Shown here: positions 5,216 through 30,904 of the stretch, one piece after another
Layout of the letters: the number at the start of each line of letters is the position of its first letter
Position numbering within the stretch: position 1 is the first letter of the stretch
Origin: Longimicrobiales bacterium
GTDB taxonomy: Bacteria > Gemmatimonadota > Gemmatimonadetes > Longimicrobiales > RSA9
Direction: 5' to 3'
DNA length: 35,321 nucleotides
Assembly (NCBI GenBank): GCA_035764935.1
Contig: DASTYK010000148.1
Location: forward strand, 1 to 35,321
Made by a program: the position numbers and the translations under genes
Notes under the pieces: model-generated
What the model was told of the DNA's origin: nothing
Databases searched by the model: none
Seen by the model: only the letters and a program-made list of their open reading frames with translations

Positions 5216-8200
5216 TCAGAAGCCGAGGTTGAAGCCAATCGTGACCGTGCGCGTCTGGGGCAGCGTGTAGAAGTCCGTGCCGCGCGTGATCGACGTCTGT
5301 CCGGCGTAGTTCACCTCGGGGTCGAAGCCGCTGTAGTCGGTGCCCGTCAGCAGGTTCTGTCCCTGGAAGTAGATGCGTGCCGTCCGCGCACCCAGCCGGC
5401 CCGCGAGCGAGGTCGGCAGCGTGTAGCCGACGACCAGGTTCTTCAGACGGACGTACGAGCCGTCCTCGACGAACCGGTCGGAGTCACGCGTGTTGTTGTT
5501 CGGGTCGCCCCACACCGCGCGCGGCTCGTTGGTGTCCGTGTTCTCGGGCGTCCAGCGGTCCAGTGCGCGCGTCGTGTGGTTGTCCTCGAAGCTGCCGTAC
5601 TGGTCCGTGTAGATGCGCATCGCGTTGTAGACCTCGTTGCCGAGCGAGAACTGGACGAACGCGCTCACGTCGAAGCCCAGGAACGAGATGTTGTTCGTGA
5701 TGCCGCCCTCGATGTCCGGCCACGGGCTGCCGATGTCGGTGCGGTCGTCGTCGTTGATGACGCCGTCACCATTCACGTCCTCGAAGCGAATGTCACCCGG
5801 CGCCGTACCGGAGGTCTGGTAGGCCAGGCCTGCCGCGGCACAGCGTGCATTGCGGGCTTCAATCGACTCGCCGGCCAGCGTGCGGCAGATCTCGGCCTCC
5901 GACTGGAAGAGGCCCGCCATCTTGTGGCCATAGAAGAAGCCGAGCGGCTTGCCGACCTCGACCCGGCTCGCGAAGCCGCTGTTGATCGGCTGATCGTTGT
6001 ACAGCGCCGTGACCTCGTTCCGGTTGTGCGACAGGTTGAGCGTCGTCGACCAGTTGAAGCCCTGCGGATCGCTCGCCTGCACCAGCAGCAGGTTCGCGGC
6101 GAGCTCGACGCCCTCGTTCTCCATGCTGCCGACGTTGGACCAGATGTCCTCGAAGCCGGTCGTGAGCGGCACCGGCCGCGCGATCAGCAGGTCGTCGGTC
6201 TTCTTCTGGTAGTAGTCGAACGTGATTCCGAGCCGGCGGTTCAGCAGGGAGAAGTCCGTGCCCAGGTTGAGCTGCGACGTCTTCTCCCACTTCAGCTCGG
6301 GGTTCGCGAGCTGCTCGGGCGAGATGCCGGGCAGGTCGTTGTAGTTGACGCCGCCGCCGAACAGGCCGCGCGCGGCGAAGTTGCCGAGCTGCTGCTGGTT
6401 GCCCGTGACGCCGTAGCTCGCGCGCAGCGCGAGATCACTGATCACGTCCTGGTCCAGCATGAAGTCCTCCTCGCCGATGCGGTACACGACCGACGCCGAG
6501 GGGAACGTGCCGAAGCGGTTCTCCGAGCCGAAGCGCGAAGAGCCGTCGTGGCGGATGTTGAAGGACGTCGTGATCTTGTCGGCGTACGTGTACGACAGCC
6601 GGCCGAAGAACGACAGCAGCGCGTTGTCGTCACGCGTGGACGAGCCGTCCGCGATCGTGGCCGCCGAGGTGATGTACTTGAAGTACTCGGTCGGGAACTG
6701 CGTGCCCTGCACCCAGCTCCACTCCTCGGAGTTGTCCTCGTAGCTGGAGCCGACCACGCCCGAGACGTCGTGCGCATCACCGAAGCCCCGGTCGAAGCTG
6801 AGCGTGCCCTCGTAGGTGACCTTGTTGGCATACGTGTGGCCCGCCTGCGCCTGGCCGCCGTTCGCGGCCCAGGGCCCGAACGCGGGCGAGTCGTAGCCGC
6901 GCGAGCGCATGCTCAGGTTGTCCACGCCCAGGCTGCCGCGCACGCTCAGCCAGTCCAGGATCTGATACTGCGCGAAGGCGTTTCCGATGATGCGCGTGCC
7001 GCGCTCCTCGGCCTCGGCCTCGCGCGCCATCCCGACCGGGTTCAGGTACGTCGTCCCGGTGAAGTACGTGCCGTCCTCGTTGAACACGGGGTAGATCGGC
7101 CCGTTGGCGATCGCGTTGGCCCAGGGGCTGTAGATGTTGTTGTCCGAGCGCGCGCGATCCGTGACACTGCGGGCGAGCGAGATGTTGGTGCCCAGCAGCA
7201 GGCGATCGAACGGGTTGTAGTCGAGGTTGAGACGCCCGTTGAGGCGCTCATAGCCCATCGGCTCGACGATGCCGTCCTGCCGCAGCAGGCTGCCCGAGAC
7301 GAAGTAGCGGACAGCCTCCGTGCCGCCGCGCACCGACGCCTCCATGTTGGACATGGGGGCGGTGCGTGTCACCTCGTCGAGCCAGTCCGTATCGACACCG
7401 CGCGGGACCTCGATATCGAAGACACCATCGCCCTCGAAGCCGTACCACTCGTCGAGACCGTAGTCGGACGCCGGGCCGAACCGGTTGGTCAGCCCCTCGT
7501 TGTAGACGTCCATGTACTGCTCGGTGTTCAGGAAGTCGACCATCCGCCACGGGCTCTGCCAGCCGTAGTAGCCGCCGAAGGTGATCTCCGAGCGATCCGT
7601 GATGCCGCGCTTGGTCGTGATCAGCACCACGCCGTTGGACGCGCGCGAGCCGTAGATCGCCGCCGCCGACGCATCCTTGAGGATGTCGATGCGCTCGATC
7701 TCCGCGGGGTTGAGGTCGGAGACCGCATCGATGCCCTGGCCGCCGAAGCTGGTCGTGAGGCCGGAGAAGTCGCCCTGGTTCATCGGCACGCCGTCGATCA
7801 CGTAGAGCGGCTCATTGCCGCCCGAGATCGACGAGGCGCCACGCACGCGCACGGTCATGGCCGCGCCGGGCGTGCCCGAGTTCTGCACGACCTGCACACC
7901 GGTGAGCCGGCCCTGCAGCGCCTGGTTGACGGACGTGATCGGCAGCTCGTCCACCTGGGTCTGCTCGATCGAGGCCGTCGCACCCGCGACGTTGCGACGA
8001 CGCTCCTGGCCGTAGCCGATGACGACCAGCTCGTCCAGGCGCAGCGCGTCCACCTGCAGCGTCACCGTCAGCGGCGCCATCTGCGCACCGACCGTGACCG
8101 TCTGGACTGCCTGGCTGTAGCCGATGTAGCTGAACTGAACCTCGTGCTCGCCGAACGGCACGTTGTTCAGCAGGAAGCGACCACGCTCGTCCGTGGTCGT

Positions 8201-14443: not shown

Positions 14444-15256
14444 TTACTGCGAAAGCAGCAGAAGCCCGAGAAACGCACCCACGCCGATGAACAGCCGCGT
14501 CCACGTGAACGGATTGCCGCGTGGATCCTTGCGCAGCCAGAACAGGATCGCGCCGCAGTTGGAGTTGCGCTGGTACTCGATCGGCGTCAGCGCCGGCGTG
14601 GTGTAGACCTCGACGCCGTCGATGTCTTCGGGGAGGAGCATGTTGATGTCCTCGGCCGTCATCCCGAGCATGCCGTCGATGAACACGTTGGGTGCGCAGT
14701 AGCCGCCGCCGTAGGTGCGCATGGCAACCATCTGCCGACTCCCGAACTGGGGGTCCGCCGAGATGAGCTGTACCCTGGGCATCACGTGGAACAGGTCGGT
14801 CGTGCGGATCGGGTTGCGGCGCTCGATGTCCGCGCGGGTGATGAAGCGGCCGGTGCCCATGCGGCTGCGGCGGTAGAAGCCGCTGTACTCGAGGGGCACC
14901 CGACGCCGGGCGGTCACGATGAGCGGCTCCAGCGCGATCGCGTTGGTCGCCATGGTCAGCACGACCGTCAGCTCGTAGCCGCGCTCGAGGTCGATCGGCC
15001 GGGCCATCGACCGGTACGCGAGGTGGCTCACGTTGATCAGGTAGCGACCCTCTTCCTCCGGCGACAGCACGAAGCCGCCCAGGGAGTCGGTCAGGGTCGA
15101 GTCGCTCGTGACTCCCTGCTCGTCCACGAGGCGGACGAGGGCGGACGCGATCGCGAGGGAGTCGCCCTCCGAGCGCACCGCGCCCCGGACGAGCTGGGCG
15201 TGACCAGCGGCCGGGACCATCACCACGAGCAGCAGCAGGCCGGCGAGCAGACGCAT
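14444..15256 (-). CDS. Secreted carboxypeptidase-regulatory-like / TonB plug domain protein without barrel
   Basis: 270 residues. Signal peptide 1-20 (MRLLAGLLLLVVMVPAAGHA), a carboxypeptidase-regulatory-like beta-sandwich ~22-105 (VRGAVRSEGDSLAIASALVRLVDEQG, GGFVLSPEEEGRYLINVSHLAYR), then a TonB plug-like domain ~108-242: LEPLIVTARR, ADIERRNPIRTTDLFHVMPRVQL, APNVFIDGM and IDGVEVYTTPALTPIEYQ. The barrel expected of a TonB-dependent receptor is absent; the protein ends in a hydrophobic helix (255-269). Cys187 and Cys234 may form a disulfide. The ATG at 15256 has GGAGG six bases upstream and gives the signal peptide. Such short plug proteins are common in Gemmatimonadota (recollection), but their role is unknown. 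It is divergent from the Lrp-like gene. Confidence 0.85.
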   Translation of the reverse strand: MRLLAGLLLLVVMVPAAGHAQLVRGAVRSEGDSLAIASALVRLVDEQGVTSDSTLTDSLGGFVLSPEEEGRYLINVSHLAYRSMARPIDLERGYELTVVLTMATNAIALEPLIVTARRRVPLEYSGFYRRSRMGTGRFITRADIERRNPIRTTDLFHVMPRVQLISADPQFGSRQMVAMRTYGGGYCAPNVFIDGMLGMTAEDINMLLPEDIDGVEVYTTPALTPIEYQRNSNCGAILFWLRKDPRGNPFTWTRLFIGVGAFLGLLLLSQ

Positions 15257-15538
15257 GGAGGCCTCCGGGGTGGGACGGGCTCGCTCGGAGCCCCTCACGC
15301 CAGTATAAGCAGGAGCCGGAAGCGCCGGAAGCGGGATTCACGCCGCCCCGGGACGGATCGACAGCGGTTGGGCCGAAACGATGACGAATCGACGCGGACG
15401 CAAGCGCCACCGACGGTTTCGCCCACGAAACGCCGGGCGGCTGGTTCCGGCGCAGAGAGCAACGATTCCGGAGCAGTTCTGCTGCCGCCCCTTCCGTGGG
15501 CGGTGGCGCGTTACTTGGCACGCGCCCGGGCCGGCCCC

Positions 15539-16060
15539 ATGTTTCATGGCATGTACGACAATCTGGATCTGCAGATCCTGCAGCTGCTCCAGGAGAACGC
15601 CCGCATGCCGAACGCCGAGATCGCGCGGCGCGTCGGCCTCGCCCCGTCCGCCGTGTTCCAGCGGATCCGCAAGCTCGAACAGAACGGCGTGCTCCGCGGC
15701 TACCACGCCGAGATCTGCCCCGTCGCACTCGACCAGGGACTCCTCGCCTTCGTCCTCATCCGTACCTCCGAGGGCGCCCGCGCCCGGGAAACCGCCGAGC
15801 TGCTCGCGGGCATTCCCGAGGTGCTCGAGGTCCATCGCGTGGTCGGTGACGACTGCTTCTTCCTCAAGGTGCGCGTCCGCGACACCGACGCGCTCGGCGA
15901 GCTGCTCGACGACAAGATCCAGCCGCTCCCGCCCGTCGCCGCCACCCGCACGACCATCGTGCTGAGCACCGCCAAGGACGCCCGGCCCTCCGTCACCCCG
16001 ACCCTCGCCCGCCTCGCGCAGGAGGACGAAGACCAGACCGCGGCCGACCAGGCGAGCTGA
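15539..16060 (+). CDS. Lrp/AsnC-family transcriptional regulator
   Basis: 173 residues (or 169 from the second in-frame ATG at 15551). An N-terminal winged helix-turn-helix (LDLQILQLLQENARMPNAEIARRVGLAPSAVFQRIRKLEQNGVLRGY, about 9-55) is followed by an RAM/effector domain ~65-145 (LLAFVLIRTSEG.., IPEVLEVHRVVGDDCFFLKVRV). This architecture is that of DNA-binding dimers or octamers responding to amino acids. The acidic, disordered tail after residue ~150 is longer than usual. Neither start has a good ribosome-binding site, so the start is uncertain by a few codons. It faces the plug gene across 282 bases and is followed by the cupredoxin operon, which it might regulate; that is inference from position only. 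Confidence 0.9.
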   Translation: MFHGMYDNLDLQILQLLQENARMPNAEIARRVGLAPSAVFQRIRKLEQNGVLRGYHAEICPVALDQGLLAFVLIRTSEGARARETAELLAGIPEVLEVHRVVGDDCFFLKVRVRDTDALGELLDDKIQPLPPVAATRTTIVLSTAKDARPSVTPTLARLAQEDEDQTAADQAS

Positions 16061-16299: not shown

Positions 16300-16935
16300 A
16301 TGCAGCGAAGGTATGCCTGGATGCTGGCCGGAGTAGCACTGTTGGCGGGGGTAGCGAGTTGCAGTGACGGAGGTGGTGGTGGCACGACGGAGCCGCAGAC
16401 GGGGACGGTCAGCGGGTCGGTGGAGGCTGCGGGGACGGGGGTCCCGGGCGCTACGCTGACGCTGGTACGGGCGCAGAGCACGCGGACGGCGACGTCGTCG
16501 GGGACGGGTGCCTTTTCGTTTGCGAGTGTGGCGACGGGTTCGTGGACGCTGGGCATCGACCCGCCGGAAGGGTTCGTGCTGGCGCCCAACCAGGACGAGA
16601 CGGTTGCGGTGACCGTGAATGCGAACCAGACGACGACGGTCGAGTTTGCGCTGGAGGAGGAGGAACCGGGCGACGAGCCGGTCCTGATCACGCTGCAGGG
16701 CACGAGCTTCTCGCCGAGCGACGTGACGATCAGCGTGGGTGAGACGGTGCGCTGGGAGAACCGTGACGGGGCTACGCACACGGTCACGCCGGACGGACAC
16801 AGCGCATGGGCGGAGGCAGTGCTCGACGCGAACGGTGAGGCATTCGAGCACACGTTCAACACGGCGGGCACATACAACTACTACTGCAACCCGCACCGCA
16901 CGCAGGGCATGACGGGCGTGATCCGGGTGCAGTGA
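16300..16935 (+). CDS. Cupredoxin (plastocyanin-like) lipoprotein, first gene of blue-copper operon
   Basis: 211-residue lipoprotein: signal with lipobox GVASC (Cys21), a Gly-rich linker, a carboxypeptidase-regulatory/SdrD-like beta-sandwich ~35-118 (GTVSGSVEAAGTGVPGATLTLV), an acidic linker EEEEPGDE, and a C-terminal cupredoxin domain ~125-211. All four type-1 copper ligands are present: His160 (GATHTV), Cys196, His199 and Met204 (YYCNPHRTQGM). It should be an electron carrier or copper-binding protein on the periplasmic or outer face of the envelope. The ATG at 16300 has GGAGG five bases upstream; the alternative ORF start at 16231 would destroy the signal peptide. The next gene overlaps it by one base (TGATG), so translation is coupled. 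Confidence 0.92.
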   Translation: MQRRYAWMLAGVALLAGVASCSDGGGGGTTEPQTGTVSGSVEAAGTGVPGATLTLVRAQSTRTATSSGTGAFSFASVATGSWTLGIDPPEGFVLAPNQDETVAVTVNANQTTTVEFALEEEEPGDEPVLITLQGTSFSPSDVTISVGETVRWENRDGATHTVTPDGHSAWAEAVLDANGEAFEHTFNTAGTYNYYCNPHRTQGMTGVIRVQ

Positions 16936-18047
16936 TGCGCGCGTCGCTGGTGGTGACGGCGACCATGCTCGCGACGCTGCTTGCGGCGTCCGCGGTGTCG
17001 GCGCGTGCGCAGTCGCTGCTGGAGCGCTCGCCGAACCTGGGCGGCACGTGGTCGGGCGAGTCGGGCACGCTGCATTTCCATTTCATGCACCGCTTCGAGG
17101 CGACGGATCCGCCTGCGCGGAAGGTGCTCAACTCGCCGACGTTCCTGCTGGCGGCGACGCTGCCGCACAACCTGCTGGCTGGCGCGCGCTACGCTACCAA
17201 CTCGCTGGTGCGCACGGGCTATCCGAACGAATGGGAGTTCTTCGGCCGCTGGCACATGCTGACACAGGAGAGCGGCGTACCGCTGGATGCATCGATTCAC
17301 GGTGGCTGGAACCAGGCCGCGTCCAGCGCCGACGCGGAGCTGACGCTTGCGCGTCGGCTCGGTCGGCTGCGTGTCCTTGGTGCCGGCCGCGTGCTGTCGG
17401 ACGCGTATCACTCGGGAGAGACGCGGTTTGCCGCGGGTGGTGGAGCCACGCTCAAGGTACTCGACTGGCTCGCGCTGGCGGGCGACGCGATGACGCTGCT
17501 CGACCGTGCGGACGAGGAGGACGTCGCCTGGAGTGCAGGGGTACAGCTGCAGATTCCGATGTCGCCGCACACGCTGTCGCTGCATGCGTCGAATGCGAAC
17601 ACGACGACGCTGCAGGGCACGTCGCGTGGGGTCGGCGAGGTGATGTACGGGTTCGAGTTCACGATCCCGCTGACGCTGAGCCGCTATTTCGGCCGGCGCA
17701 CGCAGTCGGCCGAGTCGGCCGCACCGGCTCCGCCCGCAGCAGTGGAAGTGGACATGACCAACCGGCTGCTGTTCTCGCCGGACACGGTGCGGATCCGGAG
17801 TGGCGAGACGGTGCTGTGGCGGAACTCGTCGATGCTGCCGCACACGGTGACCGCGGACCGCTCCAGGGCGGCGTCAGCAGACAACGTCGTGTTGCCGGCA
17901 GGCGCGGAGCCCTTCGATTCGGGCAACATCGATCCGGGCCGCTCGTGGTCGTACACGTTCACCGTGCCCGGCACGTACCAGTACGTGTGCCTGCCGCATG
18001 AGCTGGCCGGCATGATCGGCGTCGTGGTCGTGGAGGGCGGCTCATGA
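16935..18047 (+). CDS. Outer-membrane beta-barrel (DUF5777-like) fused to a cupredoxin domain
   Basis: 370 residues. Signal peptide 1-26 ending in ARAQS, then ~40-255 built of alternating beta-strands (GTLHFHFMHRF, LLAATLPHNLLAGARYATNS, ADAELTLARRLGRLRVLGAGRVL, HTLSLHASNANTTTLQ, VMYGFEFTIPLTLSRYF) in the pattern of DUF5777-type outer-membrane barrels, a Pro/Ala linker ~258-270, and a C-terminal cupredoxin domain 271-368. Copper ligands are His303 (LPHTV), Cys352, His355 and Met360 (VCLPHELAGM). The barrel family call is from the strand pattern and the opening motif, so it is tentative; the cupredoxin is firm. ATG at 16935 overlaps the previous stop by one base; a GTG three bases earlier is also possible. 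The fusion could place a copper redox site at the outer membrane. Confidence 0.85.
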   Translation: MRASLVVTATMLATLLAASAVSARAQSLLERSPNLGGTWSGESGTLHFHFMHRFEATDPPARKVLNSPTFLLAATLPHNLLAGARYATNSLVRTGYPNEWEFFGRWHMLTQESGVPLDASIHGGWNQAASSADAELTLARRLGRLRVLGAGRVLSDAYHSGETRFAAGGGATLKVLDWLALAGDAMTLLDRADEEDVAWSAGVQLQIPMSPHTLSLHASNANTTTLQGTSRGVGEVMYGFEFTIPLTLSRYFGRRTQSAESAAPAPPAAVEVDMTNRLLFSPDTVRIRSGETVLWRNSSMLPHTVTADRSRAASADNVVLPAGAEPFDSGNIDPGRSWSYTFTVPGTYQYVCLPHELAGMIGVVVVEGGS

Positions 18048-18514
18048 GCATGCATGCCAGGGCCGGTTCGTTCTTCGCCTTGCGTGTGCCTGCATCCTCA
18101 CTGCACGCGCGCGCCGCGAAGCGGCACTGCAGCATTGTGCTGGTCCTGTCGGTGCTGCTGGCTGCTGCGTGCTTCAGCAGTGACCCGGCGGGCAACGACG
18201 ATGGGGATGCCGACGTCACGATCGACATGACGGCAGACCTCTTGTACTCGCCCGCTGCCGCAACGGCGCGGGTCGGGGAGACCGTTCGGTGGGTGAACCG
18301 GAGCAACATCCCGCACACGGTCACTGCGGACCCCGATCTCGCTGCCAACCCGCAAAGCGTGATGCTGCCTGCGGGTGCCGCGCCGTTCGACAGCGGGCTG
18401 ATCGACGCAGGAGGATCGTACACGCGCACGTTCACGGTGCCGGGCACGTACCGCTACTTCTGTCGCCCGCACGAGGGTGCGGCCATGATCGGGACGATCG
18501 TGGTGAGCGAGTGA
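18044..18514 (+). CDS. Cupredoxin lipoprotein, third gene of blue-copper operon
   Basis: 156 residues. A basic N-terminus and hydrophobic stretch end in a lipobox AAAC (Cys43), followed by a short Asp-rich linker and a single cupredoxin domain ~57-156. Type-1 copper ligands His91 (IPHTV), Cys140, His143 and Met148 (FCRPHEGAAM) are all present. The domain is strikingly like the C-terminal domain of the preceding protein: both share DMT..LL(F/Y)SP, GETV.W.N, PHTVTAD, LPAGA.PFDSG, FTVPGTY and PHE..(A/G)MIG. That points to duplication. ATG overlaps the preceding stop (ATGA), so the three genes are translationally coupled. The signal region is longer than normal (42 residues), so a downstream start is conceivable. 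Confidence 0.9.
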   Translation: MSMHARAGSFFALRVPASSLHARAAKRHCSIVLVLSVLLAAACFSSDPAGNDDGDADVTIDMTADLLYSPAAATARVGETVRWVNRSNIPHTVTADPDLAANPQSVMLPAGAAPFDSGLIDAGGSYTRTFTVPGTYRYFCRPHEGAAMIGTIVVSE

Positions 18515-28481: not shown

Positions 28482-29366
28482 TCACTCGACTGGCGTCCAC
28501 TCGACCGGCTCGAGCGACGTCAGGTATGCCCAGATCGCGCGCATCTCCGTGTCCGTCGCGTGCGAGAACGCGGTCCACGGCATGTACATCGGGTTCAGGT
28601 GCCTGCCCTCCGGTGTGACACCGGTCTTCAGCGTGTGTGCAAACTGCTCGTACGTCCAGTTCTTCAGGTTGCCGGCCGGCGTCAGGTTCGCTCCGGGTGG
28701 CGCACCAGGCGCCTCGGCAGGCGCGCCGGCGAGCTGCGCGCCGTGGCAGCCGATGCAGAGACGCGTCAGGTAATAGCCGTACTCCGCAGTCGGCTCCTTT
28801 GCAGGCGCCTCGAGATGGCGCGCGTCCGGCAGCATGCGATCCCGGGATGGATGGAGCTTGCCGAGTGCCACGAGACCCCGACCGACCGGGCCGAACTCGC
28901 GCTCCGGCAGTGAATCGGGGATCGCCGGCAGCGTCTGCAGGTACGCGACCAGGTCAGCGATCTCCCGGTCACTCAGGTACACGTACTCCTGCGACGGCAT
29001 GATGAACAGCGCGCGGCCGTCCGCACCGATACCGTGCCGGATCGCGCGCTCCCACTGCTCCACTGTCAGTGCACCGCCCTCACGACCCGGCGTCAGGTTG
29101 GGTGCGGGCAGACGCGCCATCGGCATCTCGTCGATCAGCATCACGCCGGCCAGGTTGCCGCCGTGGCAGTCACGGCAGCCGAACGCGCCGGCAAGACGCT
29201 CACCTTCGGCTACGTCCGCCGCGGCAAGATCGAGCGCGTGCGCCTCGACCTCCGGCCGTGCGTTCAGGTGCATGCTGCTGACGGCGTAGCCGGTCCCTGC
29301 TGCCAGTCCGATCAGCAGCACCAGACCGCCGAGGGTAATGCCCGCTCGTCGCTTCCAGGTAGTCAT
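28482..29366 (-). CDS. Membrane-anchored dihaem cytochrome c
   Basis: 294 residues. An N-terminal hydrophobic helix (about 8-30, RRAGITLGGLVLLIGLAAGTGYAV) works as anchor or signal. Two class-I cytochrome c domains follow: haem 1 CRDCH (64-68) with a Met in FIMPSQEY (Met123), and haem 2 CIGCH (204-208) with a Met in MYMPW (Met262). It should be an electron carrier on the periplasmic side, like the cytochrome subunits of dehydrogenases. ATG at 29366 with AGGAGAT upstream. A 5'-leader hairpin lies about 30 bases before the start. It is a paralogue of the gene at 30026-30904, with most of the sequence shared. No dehydrogenase subunit is adjacent. Confidence 0.93.
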   Translation of the reverse strand: MTTWKRRAGITLGGLVLLIGLAAGTGYAVSSMHLNARPEVEAHALDLAAADVAEGERLAGAFGCRDCHGGNLAGVMLIDEMPMARLPAPNLTPGREGGALTVEQWERAIRHGIGADGRALFIMPSQEYVYLSDREIADLVAYLQTLPAIPDSLPEREFGPVGRGLVALGKLHPSRDRMLPDARHLEAPAKEPTAEYGYYLTRLCIGCHGAQLAGAPAEAPGAPPGANLTPAGNLKNWTYEQFAHTLKTGVTPEGRHLNPMYMPWTAFSHATDTEMRAIWAYLTSLEPVEWTPVE

Positions 29367-30025
29367 CGGGGGATCTCCTGAATATCCACGGGAAACGCGC
29401 GGCCTGAACGGCCGCGCATCGGGGTTCACTTGCGATGTTGCATCTGGACGATGCGGACCCCCGGCTGCGTCGACGCGCCGTGGGTGCAATCAGAACGGGA
29501 TTCCGGTGCGGCGGGTTGCACCGGCGGTCGAACGGTACAGGCGGAGGCGGAGGCGGCGGAAGGTTTTTGTGGCGGGGATTCGATTCGGATGGCACCGAAT
29601 TGCGTCAGGGTGCGCGACTGCGTGGCTTCCGGGTTGACTGGCGGCGCGCTCGGGGCGTCGGGCTGGCCACGGCGTTCGGGATCGTACCTGACAGCGGCAC
29701 TGGGGGCGCCCCCTCCCTGTCCGCACGCCCCTGCGCACCCGGCCCCGCGCCGGCCGGAAACGTCACAATTGAGGCGACCGCATCTGGCGCATGTAACGAA
29801 CCCGGCGATATACGCCGGAAACGTCACAGAACGCCTGTCCTGCGACCCCGTTATGAAACGTTTCCGGCCTCAGGCGCCGGAAAGGTTACAGTCGCCTGGA
29901 CGCACGGCAGCAAATGTGACGAAACCGGCGCCCGATGACGCCCTCCCGCCGCGAGTCGCCTCGGCGGCGTGAGTCAACCATCCGCCGGTCGCTCGTGTGC
30001 AGGTGCCCTGCGGGTCTCCCTGCCC
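29367..30025. other. 660-bp non-coding gap between cytochrome genes
   Basis: No convincing gene: the open frames are opposite-strand shadows, Ser/Arg/Pro/Cys-rich with no family match. It contains a perfect 8-bp hairpin GCGCGGCC/GGCCGCGC (29397-29417) in the leader of the downstream cytochrome gene, a stretch of unexplained sequence at 29430-29750, and three palindromic units at 29754-29940 described separately. Confidence 0.6.
29754..29940. repeat. Three ~62-bp palindromic units
   Basis: Six copies of a 13-bp motif alternate in direction. Forward CCGGAAACGTCAC at 29754, the same at 29815, CCGGAAAGGTTAC at 29877; reverse GTAACGAACCCGG at 29793, GAAACGTTTCCGG at 29855, GTGACGAAACCGG at 29916. 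Each forward copy is followed by its reverse partner 39, 40 and 39 bases downstream, so the units start 61-62 bp apart. The regular layout is hard to reach by chance. Function unknown: operator array, RNA hairpins or a dispersed repeat are all possible. Confidence 0.7.
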
Positions 30026-30904
30026 TCACTCCTCCGTCGCCACCGGTTCCAGCGTCTTCAGGTATGCCCACATCGCCCGGAGCGCGGTGTCGTCCGACTG
30101 GCCGATGGATGGCCATGGCATGAACATCGGATCGAGGGACTTCCCCTCCGGCGTCACCCCGGTCCGCAGCGTCCGCTCGAAATCCTCGTACGTCCAGCGC
30201 GCGAGATTCCCGGCCGGGGTCAGGTTCGCGGCGAGCGGTGAGCCGGGCATGGGCATGGGCCCACCGGCGAGGTTGCGGCCGTGGCAGCCCGCGCAGAGGC
30301 GCGTCAGGTAGAAGCCGTACTCGGGTGTTGCCGCCCTGGCCGGTGCATCGAGGTGACGCGCGTCGGGTGGCATGAGGTCCGGTGCGAAGTCGATCATGCC
30401 GAGCCCCACCAGCGTGCGGCCGAGCGGGCCGAACCCGCGTGGCGGCAGTGTGTCGGGTACGGCGGGCACCGTTCGCAGGTAGGCGATCAGGTCAGCGACG
30501 TCGCGGTCGCTGAGCCAGACGTAATCGTTGGAGGGCAGGATGAAGAGCGCGCGCCCGTCCGCTCCGACGCCGTGCCGGATCGCGCGCTCCCACTGCTCGT
30601 CGGTGAGCGGGCCGCCCGCGCGTCCGGGCGTGAGGTTGGGCGCTGCGACGCGGCCCATCGGCGTCGCATCGACGAGCATCCGTCCTTCCAGCTTCCCGCC
30701 ATGGCAGTCGATGCACCCGAACACCCGCACCAGCTCGGCGCCTGACGTTGCATCGCCGGTGGACGCGTCGAATGCGTGGGTGTCGACCTCCGGTACATCA
30801 TCGATGCGTGCGGTCCCGATCGCGAACGCCGCACTGCCGGCGGCGAGGACGAGTGCGAGCAGAACGAGCACGCCAACGCCGATACGGCGCAGCCATTCCC
30901 GCAT
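30026..30904 (-). CDS. Membrane-anchored dihaem cytochrome c, paralogue
   Basis: 292 residues. Hydrophobic anchor/signal ~8-30, then two cytochrome c domains with CIDCH (64-68) and CAGCH near 203-207. Much of the chain matches the 28482-29366 protein (for example NLTPGR.GG.LT.EQWERAIRHG.GADGRALFI and the GNL..WTYE.F..TL.TGVTPEG segment), so a tandem duplication is clear. The haem-2 Met in MFMPW is kept, but at the haem-1 ligand position the paralogue's FIMPS is FILPS here, so Met is replaced by Leu. ATG at 30904 with AGGAGGAAC upstream, a strong ribosome-binding site. It is downstream of the amidase gene on the same strand, with 79 bases between. Confidence 0.93.
   Translation of the reverse strand: MREWLRRIGVGVLVLLALVLAAGSAAFAIGTARIDDVPEVDTHAFDASTGDATSGAELVRVFGCIDCHGGKLEGRMLVDATPMGRVAAPNLTPGRAGGPLTDEQWERAIRHGVGADGRALFILPSNDYVWLSDRDVADLIAYLRTVPAVPDTLPPRGFGPLGRTLVGLGMIDFAPDLMPPDARHLDAPARAATPEYGFYLTRLCAGCHGRNLAGGPMPMPGSPLAANLTPAGNLARWTYEDFERTLRTGVTPEGKSLDPMFMPWPSIGQSDDTALRAMWAYLKTLEPVATEE

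Follow-up and report, generated by a model that had tools for sequence, protein, structure and literature searches.

To our knowledge, the known electron routes at the outer membrane rest on heme proteins, such as Cyc2 and MtrAB/MtoAB. Cyc2, an outer-membrane Fe(II) oxidase, is a fused monoheme cytochrome-porin (PMC12016527, PMC10654088). In this work we describe a locus from a Longimicrobiales bacterium (Gemmatimonadota) where the middle one of three consecutive genes, gene 2, follows a comparable plan, in that a barrel and a one-electron carrier are combined in a single polypeptide. This likeness is an analogy and not a demonstrated homology. Unlike that of Cyc2, the carrier of gene 2 is blue copper instead of heme and is C-terminal instead of N-terminal, and the barrel is predicted to have 12 strands, where about 17 have been reported for the barrel of Cyc2 (PMC10654088). 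The N-terminal CxxCH that is expected of a Cyc2 protein is missing, as there is no CxxCH anywhere in the gene 2 sequence. Lacking the heme motif and having a different barrel, gene 2 is therefore no member of the Cyc2 family.

The copper-resistance protein PcoB offers another point of comparison, being an outer-membrane barrel that is linked with copper and a weak fold match to gene 2. That said, we know of no type-1 copper domain in PcoB, and a Pfam scan of gene 2 gave no CopB match, which places gene 2 outside the CopB/PcoB family. Cbp2D from Cellvibrio japonicus combines a YceI-like domain with a c-type cytochrome and is a redox partner of an LPMO (PMC12542752). Here YceI-like and cytochrome domains are found together in extracellular redox work, as they are beside DUF5777 (PF19089), the family to which the gene 2 barrel appears to be distantly related; unlike the trio, Cbp2D is a multi-domain secreted protein with neither a barrel nor a cupredoxin. 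In Sideroxydans, a cluster with three cupredoxin-domain proteins shows higher expression on magnetite (PMC12016527), and this cluster is not known to involve the barrel described here. In the open-licence PMC literature we found no paper on DUF5777, and searches for Gemmatimonadota with plastocyanin, cupredoxin or blue copper returned nothing on this system. The trio and its barrel kin suggest that bacteria have an electron-handling system at the outer membrane that has not been described before.

The trio and its copper sites

The window, by which we mean the whole stretch of 35,321 nucleotides that was analysed, hosts the trio and an upstream gene as follows.

15551..16060, + strand: Lrp/AsnC-family regulator gene (PF01037, 74.8 bits; PF13404, 63.7 bits)
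16300..16935, + strand: gene 1, predicted lipoprotein with a carboxypeptidase-regulatory/prealbumin-like domain, then a C-terminal type-1 cupredoxin domain
16935..18047, + strand: gene 2, predicted outer-membrane beta-barrel with a C-terminal cupredoxin fused
16935..17730, + strand: signal peptide and predicted 12-stranded barrel portion of gene 2, by profile comparison a distant DUF5777 homologue
17742..18035, + strand: cupredoxin domain of gene 2 with the plastocyanin-type loop CLPHELAGM (located at 17745-18035 by a search of the genome)
18044..18514, + strand: gene 3, predicted lipoprotein cupredoxin (PF00127)

An earlier note on this DNA had described three consecutive genes that each carry a complete type-1 copper site, and this description holds. 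All three match PF00127 above its curated cut-off of 21.2 bits (gene 1, 56 bits; gene 2, 57.5 bits; gene 3, 61.1 bits), and the genome (3.83 Mb) has no PF00127 match besides these. The ligand set His, Cys, His, Met is complete in each of them, with the spacing C-x2-H-x4-M (GATHTV and CNPHRTQGM in gene 1, MLPHTV and CLPHELAGM in gene 2, NIPHTV and CRPHEGAAM in gene 3). The two overlaps reported between the genes can be read directly. The TGA stop of gene 1 (16933-16935) shares one nucleotide with the ATG of gene 2 at 16935 (TGATG, 16933-16937), with a GTG at 16932 as an alternative start for gene 2, and the start of gene 3 lies inside the stop of gene 2 (ATGA, 18044-18047). As proposed, the outer two genes are predicted to encode lipoproteins, with the lipoboxes VASC in gene 1 and LAAAC, then FSSD, in gene 3; the signal peptide of gene 2 is of the ordinary kind. 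The extra domain ahead of the cupredoxin in gene 1 matches PF13620 (32 bits) and PF17802 (25.4 bits).

Structure prediction agrees with the claim that the middle gene is a beta-barrel fusion. The AlphaFold2 model of gene 2 (mean pLDDT 92) places 12 strands in residues 45-247, and the PF00127 cupredoxin occupies residues 270-367, joined to the barrel by a short linker of ~17 residues. When the barrel is modelled alone the pLDDT is 91.8 and the pTM 0.85. A signal peptide followed by a closed, antiparallel, even-stranded barrel, as in this 12-strand model, is what characterizes an outer-membrane beta-barrel. The best PDB fold matches are likewise outer-membrane or designed transmembrane barrels, e.g. 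FapF, KdgM/VhGalP, OmpG and COG4313, at 6-12% identity and a TM of about 0.5. An alignment of 48 fused proteins has invariant copper ligands (H303, C352, H355 and M360) and a set of invariant residues in the barrel (W39, R53, P68, G170, D184, W199, G239 and P245). The copper ligand C352 is the only cysteine in gene 2, and no cofactor motif was found in the barrel.

The cupredoxins have the same fold and the same complete His-Cys-His-Met site as plastocyanin and amicyanin (PF00127). Unlike those soluble proteins, the window proteins are predicted to be lipid- or barrel-anchored and they fall below the equivalog cut-offs of NCBIfam: the trio reaches <=68.6 bits for plastocyanin (TIGR02656, cut-off 87.85), <=37.9 bits for amicyanin (TIGR02657, cut-off 110.2) and <=59.2 bits for halocyanin (TIGR03102, cut-off 93.8). 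The best single-sequence PDB match for the gene 2 cupredoxin is the Synechocystis plastocyanin 1pcs (E 1.1e-14), which gene 3 matches with an E of 5.2e-18. A profile of the fused domains finds the cupredoxin domain of the copper nitrite reductase 9cck as its best PDB match (E 3.3e-31), followed by amicyanins and plastocyanins. The loop of the fused domain is of the amicyanin type, CxxHxxM, in 50 of 58 homologues; only six, including that of the window, have the plastocyanin-type CxxHxxxxM.

Conservation across Gemmatimonadota

The barrel is present in 74 of 298 Gemmatimonadota genomes, which represent 43 of 119 genera. Our locus set consists of 60 fetched neighbourhoods and the loci from a further search, mostly on contigs from metagenome assemblies, and a six-frame census was taken of 65 barrels. 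The earlier note had suggested that the genes form a module whose members should be found together elsewhere, and this idea survived the census. In 59 of the 65 loci the barrel continues into a C-terminal cupredoxin; an additional cupredoxin gene lies within 2.5 kb on the same strand in 46 of the 65 (and on the opposite strand in one locus), against a background frequency of four cupredoxin domains in 480 kb. Of the six other barrels, three are cut off by contig edges (L045, L061, L062), two are without a cupredoxin (L082, L090) and in L044 a separate cupredoxin gene follows 172 bp downstream of the barrel.

For the three-gene arrangement, the extent of conservation needs to be narrowed. The barrel-cupredoxin core recurs, but the exact trio of cupredoxin, barrel-cupredoxin and cupredoxin (C-BC-C) is found in only 7 of 65 loci (the window, L042, L046, L048, L049, L066 and L071). 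Free copies occur upstream in 21 loci and downstream in 31, and most of them have lipoboxes. What is conserved is thus the barrel-cupredoxin, usually with one free cupredoxin, and a minority of loci have the full trio.

A tree of 125 cupredoxin domains separates into distinct lineages according to whether a domain lies upstream of the barrel, is fused to it or lies downstream; the position labels change 11 times on this tree, compared with a mean of 55.7 when shuffled. A 4-nt ATGA/GTGA overlap joins the fused gene to the gene of the downstream lipoprotein in roughly half of the loci that have such a copy, and a characteristic ACFS[ED] lipobox recurs among the downstream lipoproteins of homologous loci. 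Because the neighbouring copies, the position lineages and the 4-nt overlap all recur, the gene arrangement is inherited and not a product of chance, and it is probably translationally coupled. In the window's clade the downstream copy branches close to the fused domains, a position suggestive of an older duplication.

The loci also vary in their make-up. For example, proteins in which Ig-like linkers separate two or three cupredoxin domains precede the fused gene in L045, L046 and L049. In L066, a single genome carries two barrel-cupredoxin fusion genes within 4 kb (1608-2321 and 5384-6094, both on the + strand), and this pair belongs to different lineages of the fused domain. A CHRD-domain protein repeatedly closes the module in one clade (L047, L050, L056, L058, L064 and L065; 6 of 48 scanned neighbours), and a near-closed genome (L078, a 5,311,527 bp contig) carries the fused gene. 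There is also a group of related loci in which the fused gene stands alone among housekeeping genes. A larger operon around the fused gene was considered and discarded, as SelD, UspA, isocitrate dehydrogenase, RNase H and a deaminase reflect the housekeeping synteny of one clade. Matches in Ignavibacteria and Chloroflexi were rejected as relatives of the module; these are to the cupredoxin domain only, and neither genome has a DUF5777 match.

The Lrp/AsnC gene that had been pointed out upstream, about 240 bp from the trio and on the same strand, is genuine. Only four of the 65 loci (the window, L042, L081 and L085) have it in such a position, and it is therefore no defining part of the module. 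The same count led us to drop it as a general regulator of the module, and it is possible that it is a local regulator in the window. In the scanned neighbourhoods of the module loci, no gene for an oxidase, reductase or dehydrogenase turns up repeatedly, so these do not pin down a substrate or partner. Genome-wide, we found four full-length heme-copper oxidase matches and about a dozen cytochrome c domains, and these could be the inner partners of the module. On the strand opposite to the trio and ~10 kb downstream of it, the window itself hosts two c-type cytochrome genes, at 28482-29489 (- strand, with two cytochrome c domains) and 30026-30904 (- strand); nothing indicates that they are part of the module. 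On the other side, 14444-15298 (- strand) encodes a 284-aa protein with carboxypeptidase-regulatory and TonB-receptor plug domains and no room for a receptor barrel.

Kinship with DUF5777 of Bacteroidota

Taken singly, gene 2 scores 18.2 bits against DUF5777 and does not reach the gathering cut-off of 23.1. Among its homologues, 7 of 48 have a Pfam match to DUF5777 at E<=0.01, the best at 1.3e-5. An hhalign comparison of the Gemmatimonadota barrel with the DUF5777 of Bacteroidota gives 97.5% with an E of 8.8e-12 over 200 columns, and the Gemmatimonadota barrel profile matches Bacteroidota DUF5777 proteins down to E 3e-8. On the strength of these profile comparisons, the barrel is a distant homologue of DUF5777 by common descent. 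Besides the homologous barrel, the two have in common an H-R-F motif in the first strand and adjoining genes for small redox carriers. Unlike the window protein, the DUF5777 of Bacteroidota is unfused and is usually paired with cytochrome c and YceI.

DUF5777 was found in 98 of 248 sampled Bacteroidota genomes, in open frames of about 290 residues that are unfused in nearly all cases. A one-electron carrier lies within three same-strand genes of DUF5777 in 28 of 37 loci. These carriers are cytochromes c in 26 loci, mostly called by CxxCH-type motifs with only a subset confirmed by Pfam, Rieske proteins in three and cupredoxins in two. YceI is found in 26 of 37 loci, and either a carrier or YceI in 30 of 37, while among more distant ORFs a carrier motif was seen in 3 of 102. 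Examples of YceI, c-type cytochrome and Rieske proteins beside DUF5777 are confirmed by Pfam.

Some of these partners carry a type IX secretion tail, e.g. the cupredoxin beside DUF5777 in L108 (PF00127 and PF18962) and a weak DOMON match in L120 (PF18962). Such tails on cupredoxin and DOMON-like partners make it probable that some carriers reach the cell surface by export, and redox domains are therefore probably present on the cell-surface side too. In L108 and L117 the gene order is OB, cupredoxin, DUF5777, cytochrome c and YceI. L128 has PF03640 secreted repeats next to or near DUF5777, which, as in L120, may be another redox partner.

Proposed electron transfer and its alternatives

We read the trio as an outer-membrane one-electron redox module, and give this reading a probability of roughly 60%; copper loading, location in the outer membrane and electron transfer among the three proteins are steps that we infer. 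Gene 2 would be inserted in the outer membrane as a 12-stranded barrel. Since both termini of outer-membrane barrels are normally periplasmic, its C-terminal blue-copper domain would hang at the mouth that faces the periplasm. The products of genes 1 and 3 would be lipid-anchored blue-copper proteins that exchange electrons with gene 2 and carry these across the periplasm, either towards the respiratory chain or away from it. A barrel that lacks cofactors cannot carry electrons across a membrane alone, and for this reason we propose a small redox substrate or mediator. The barrel would probably admit it, whether by passage or by docking, to the tethered copper, where the cupredoxin would oxidise or reduce it.

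The earlier note had offered either electron transfer or copper handling as the role of these genes. If the role were copper handling, the barrel would import or export copper, and within the envelope the cupredoxins would take it up, buffer it or pass it on, in the manner of PcoB/PcoA or OprC. This would suit the fact that every domain comes from a copper-binding family, and PcoB is indeed among the fold matches of the barrel, albeit weakly (TM 0.44/0.53, E 1.2e-3). We consider it unlikely all the same. Type-1 sites with an axial Met are made to pass electrons and not to hand over the metal transiently, the Pfam scan of gene 2 is without CopB, and neither a copper ATPase nor a multicopper oxidase recurs beside the module. 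Furthermore, the carriers that adjoin the DUF5777 kin are heme and Fe-S proteins rather than copper proteins, with a cupredoxin in just 2 of 37 loci. Because these Bacteroidota relatives adjoin cytochromes c and Rieske proteins, electron transfer is the favoured part of the original proposal, and copper handling is left without specific support. That the cupredoxin is swapped for a cytochrome c or a Rieske protein in relatives also argues that the conserved feature is one-electron transfer, and not copper. Type-1 domains could also serve in copper storage or sensing, and this weighs against the redox-module reading, as do the low share of loci with the full trio, the related loci whose fused gene stands alone and the lack of a recurrent enzyme neighbour.

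The barrel could instead be a mere outer-membrane anchor, one that transports nothing and holds the blue-copper carriers near the membrane, with the cupredoxins acting as ordinary periplasmic shuttles. The shortness of the linker between barrel and cupredoxin is in keeping with this, as is the lipid anchoring predicted for most of the free copies. A lipid anchor would, however, be simpler than a barrel, the barrel sequence is conserved beyond the needs of an anchor (eight invariant residues from W39 to P245), and the DUF5777 barrel has redox neighbours even when it is unfused; we thus find this explanation improbable. More specifically, the cupredoxins could be dedicated to supplying electrons to an enzyme of denitrification, for example NirK or NosZ. 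Such enzymes are known to take electrons from blue copper proteins, the PDB sequence closest by profile (9cck) is a cupredoxin domain of a copper nitrite reductase, and the window's genome has a nosZ-type match. Nonetheless, the genome counts make this a very remote prospect: nosZ is found in 27 of 74 genomes with the barrel and 75 of 224 without it (p 0.67), and nirK in 14 of 74 and 28 of 224 (p 0.18), i.e. there is no association with either gene, and no nirK exceeds the cut-off in the window's genome. A partnership with NosZ or NirK was accordingly rejected as unsupported by co-occurrence across the 298 genomes.

Returning to the one-electron redox module, a wider hypothesis can be put forward tentatively, with rather less conviction than the reading of the trio itself. 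DUF5777-type barrels may define an unrecognised class of outer-membrane electron-transfer systems that Gemmatimonadota and Bacteroidota share, in which the carriers (blue copper, cytochrome c or Rieske) are interchangeable and work with a common barrel at either or both faces of the membrane. With its carrier fused, the Gemmatimonadota form would be the copper counterpart of Cyc2.

If true, a barrel with a built-in blue-copper centre would be a heme-free electron route at the outer membrane, and one that is conserved throughout a phylum of poorly known physiology. The link to DUF5777 is also a functional lead for a barrel family that is found in ~40% of the sampled Bacteroidota genomes, and makes its role testable in organisms with genetics.
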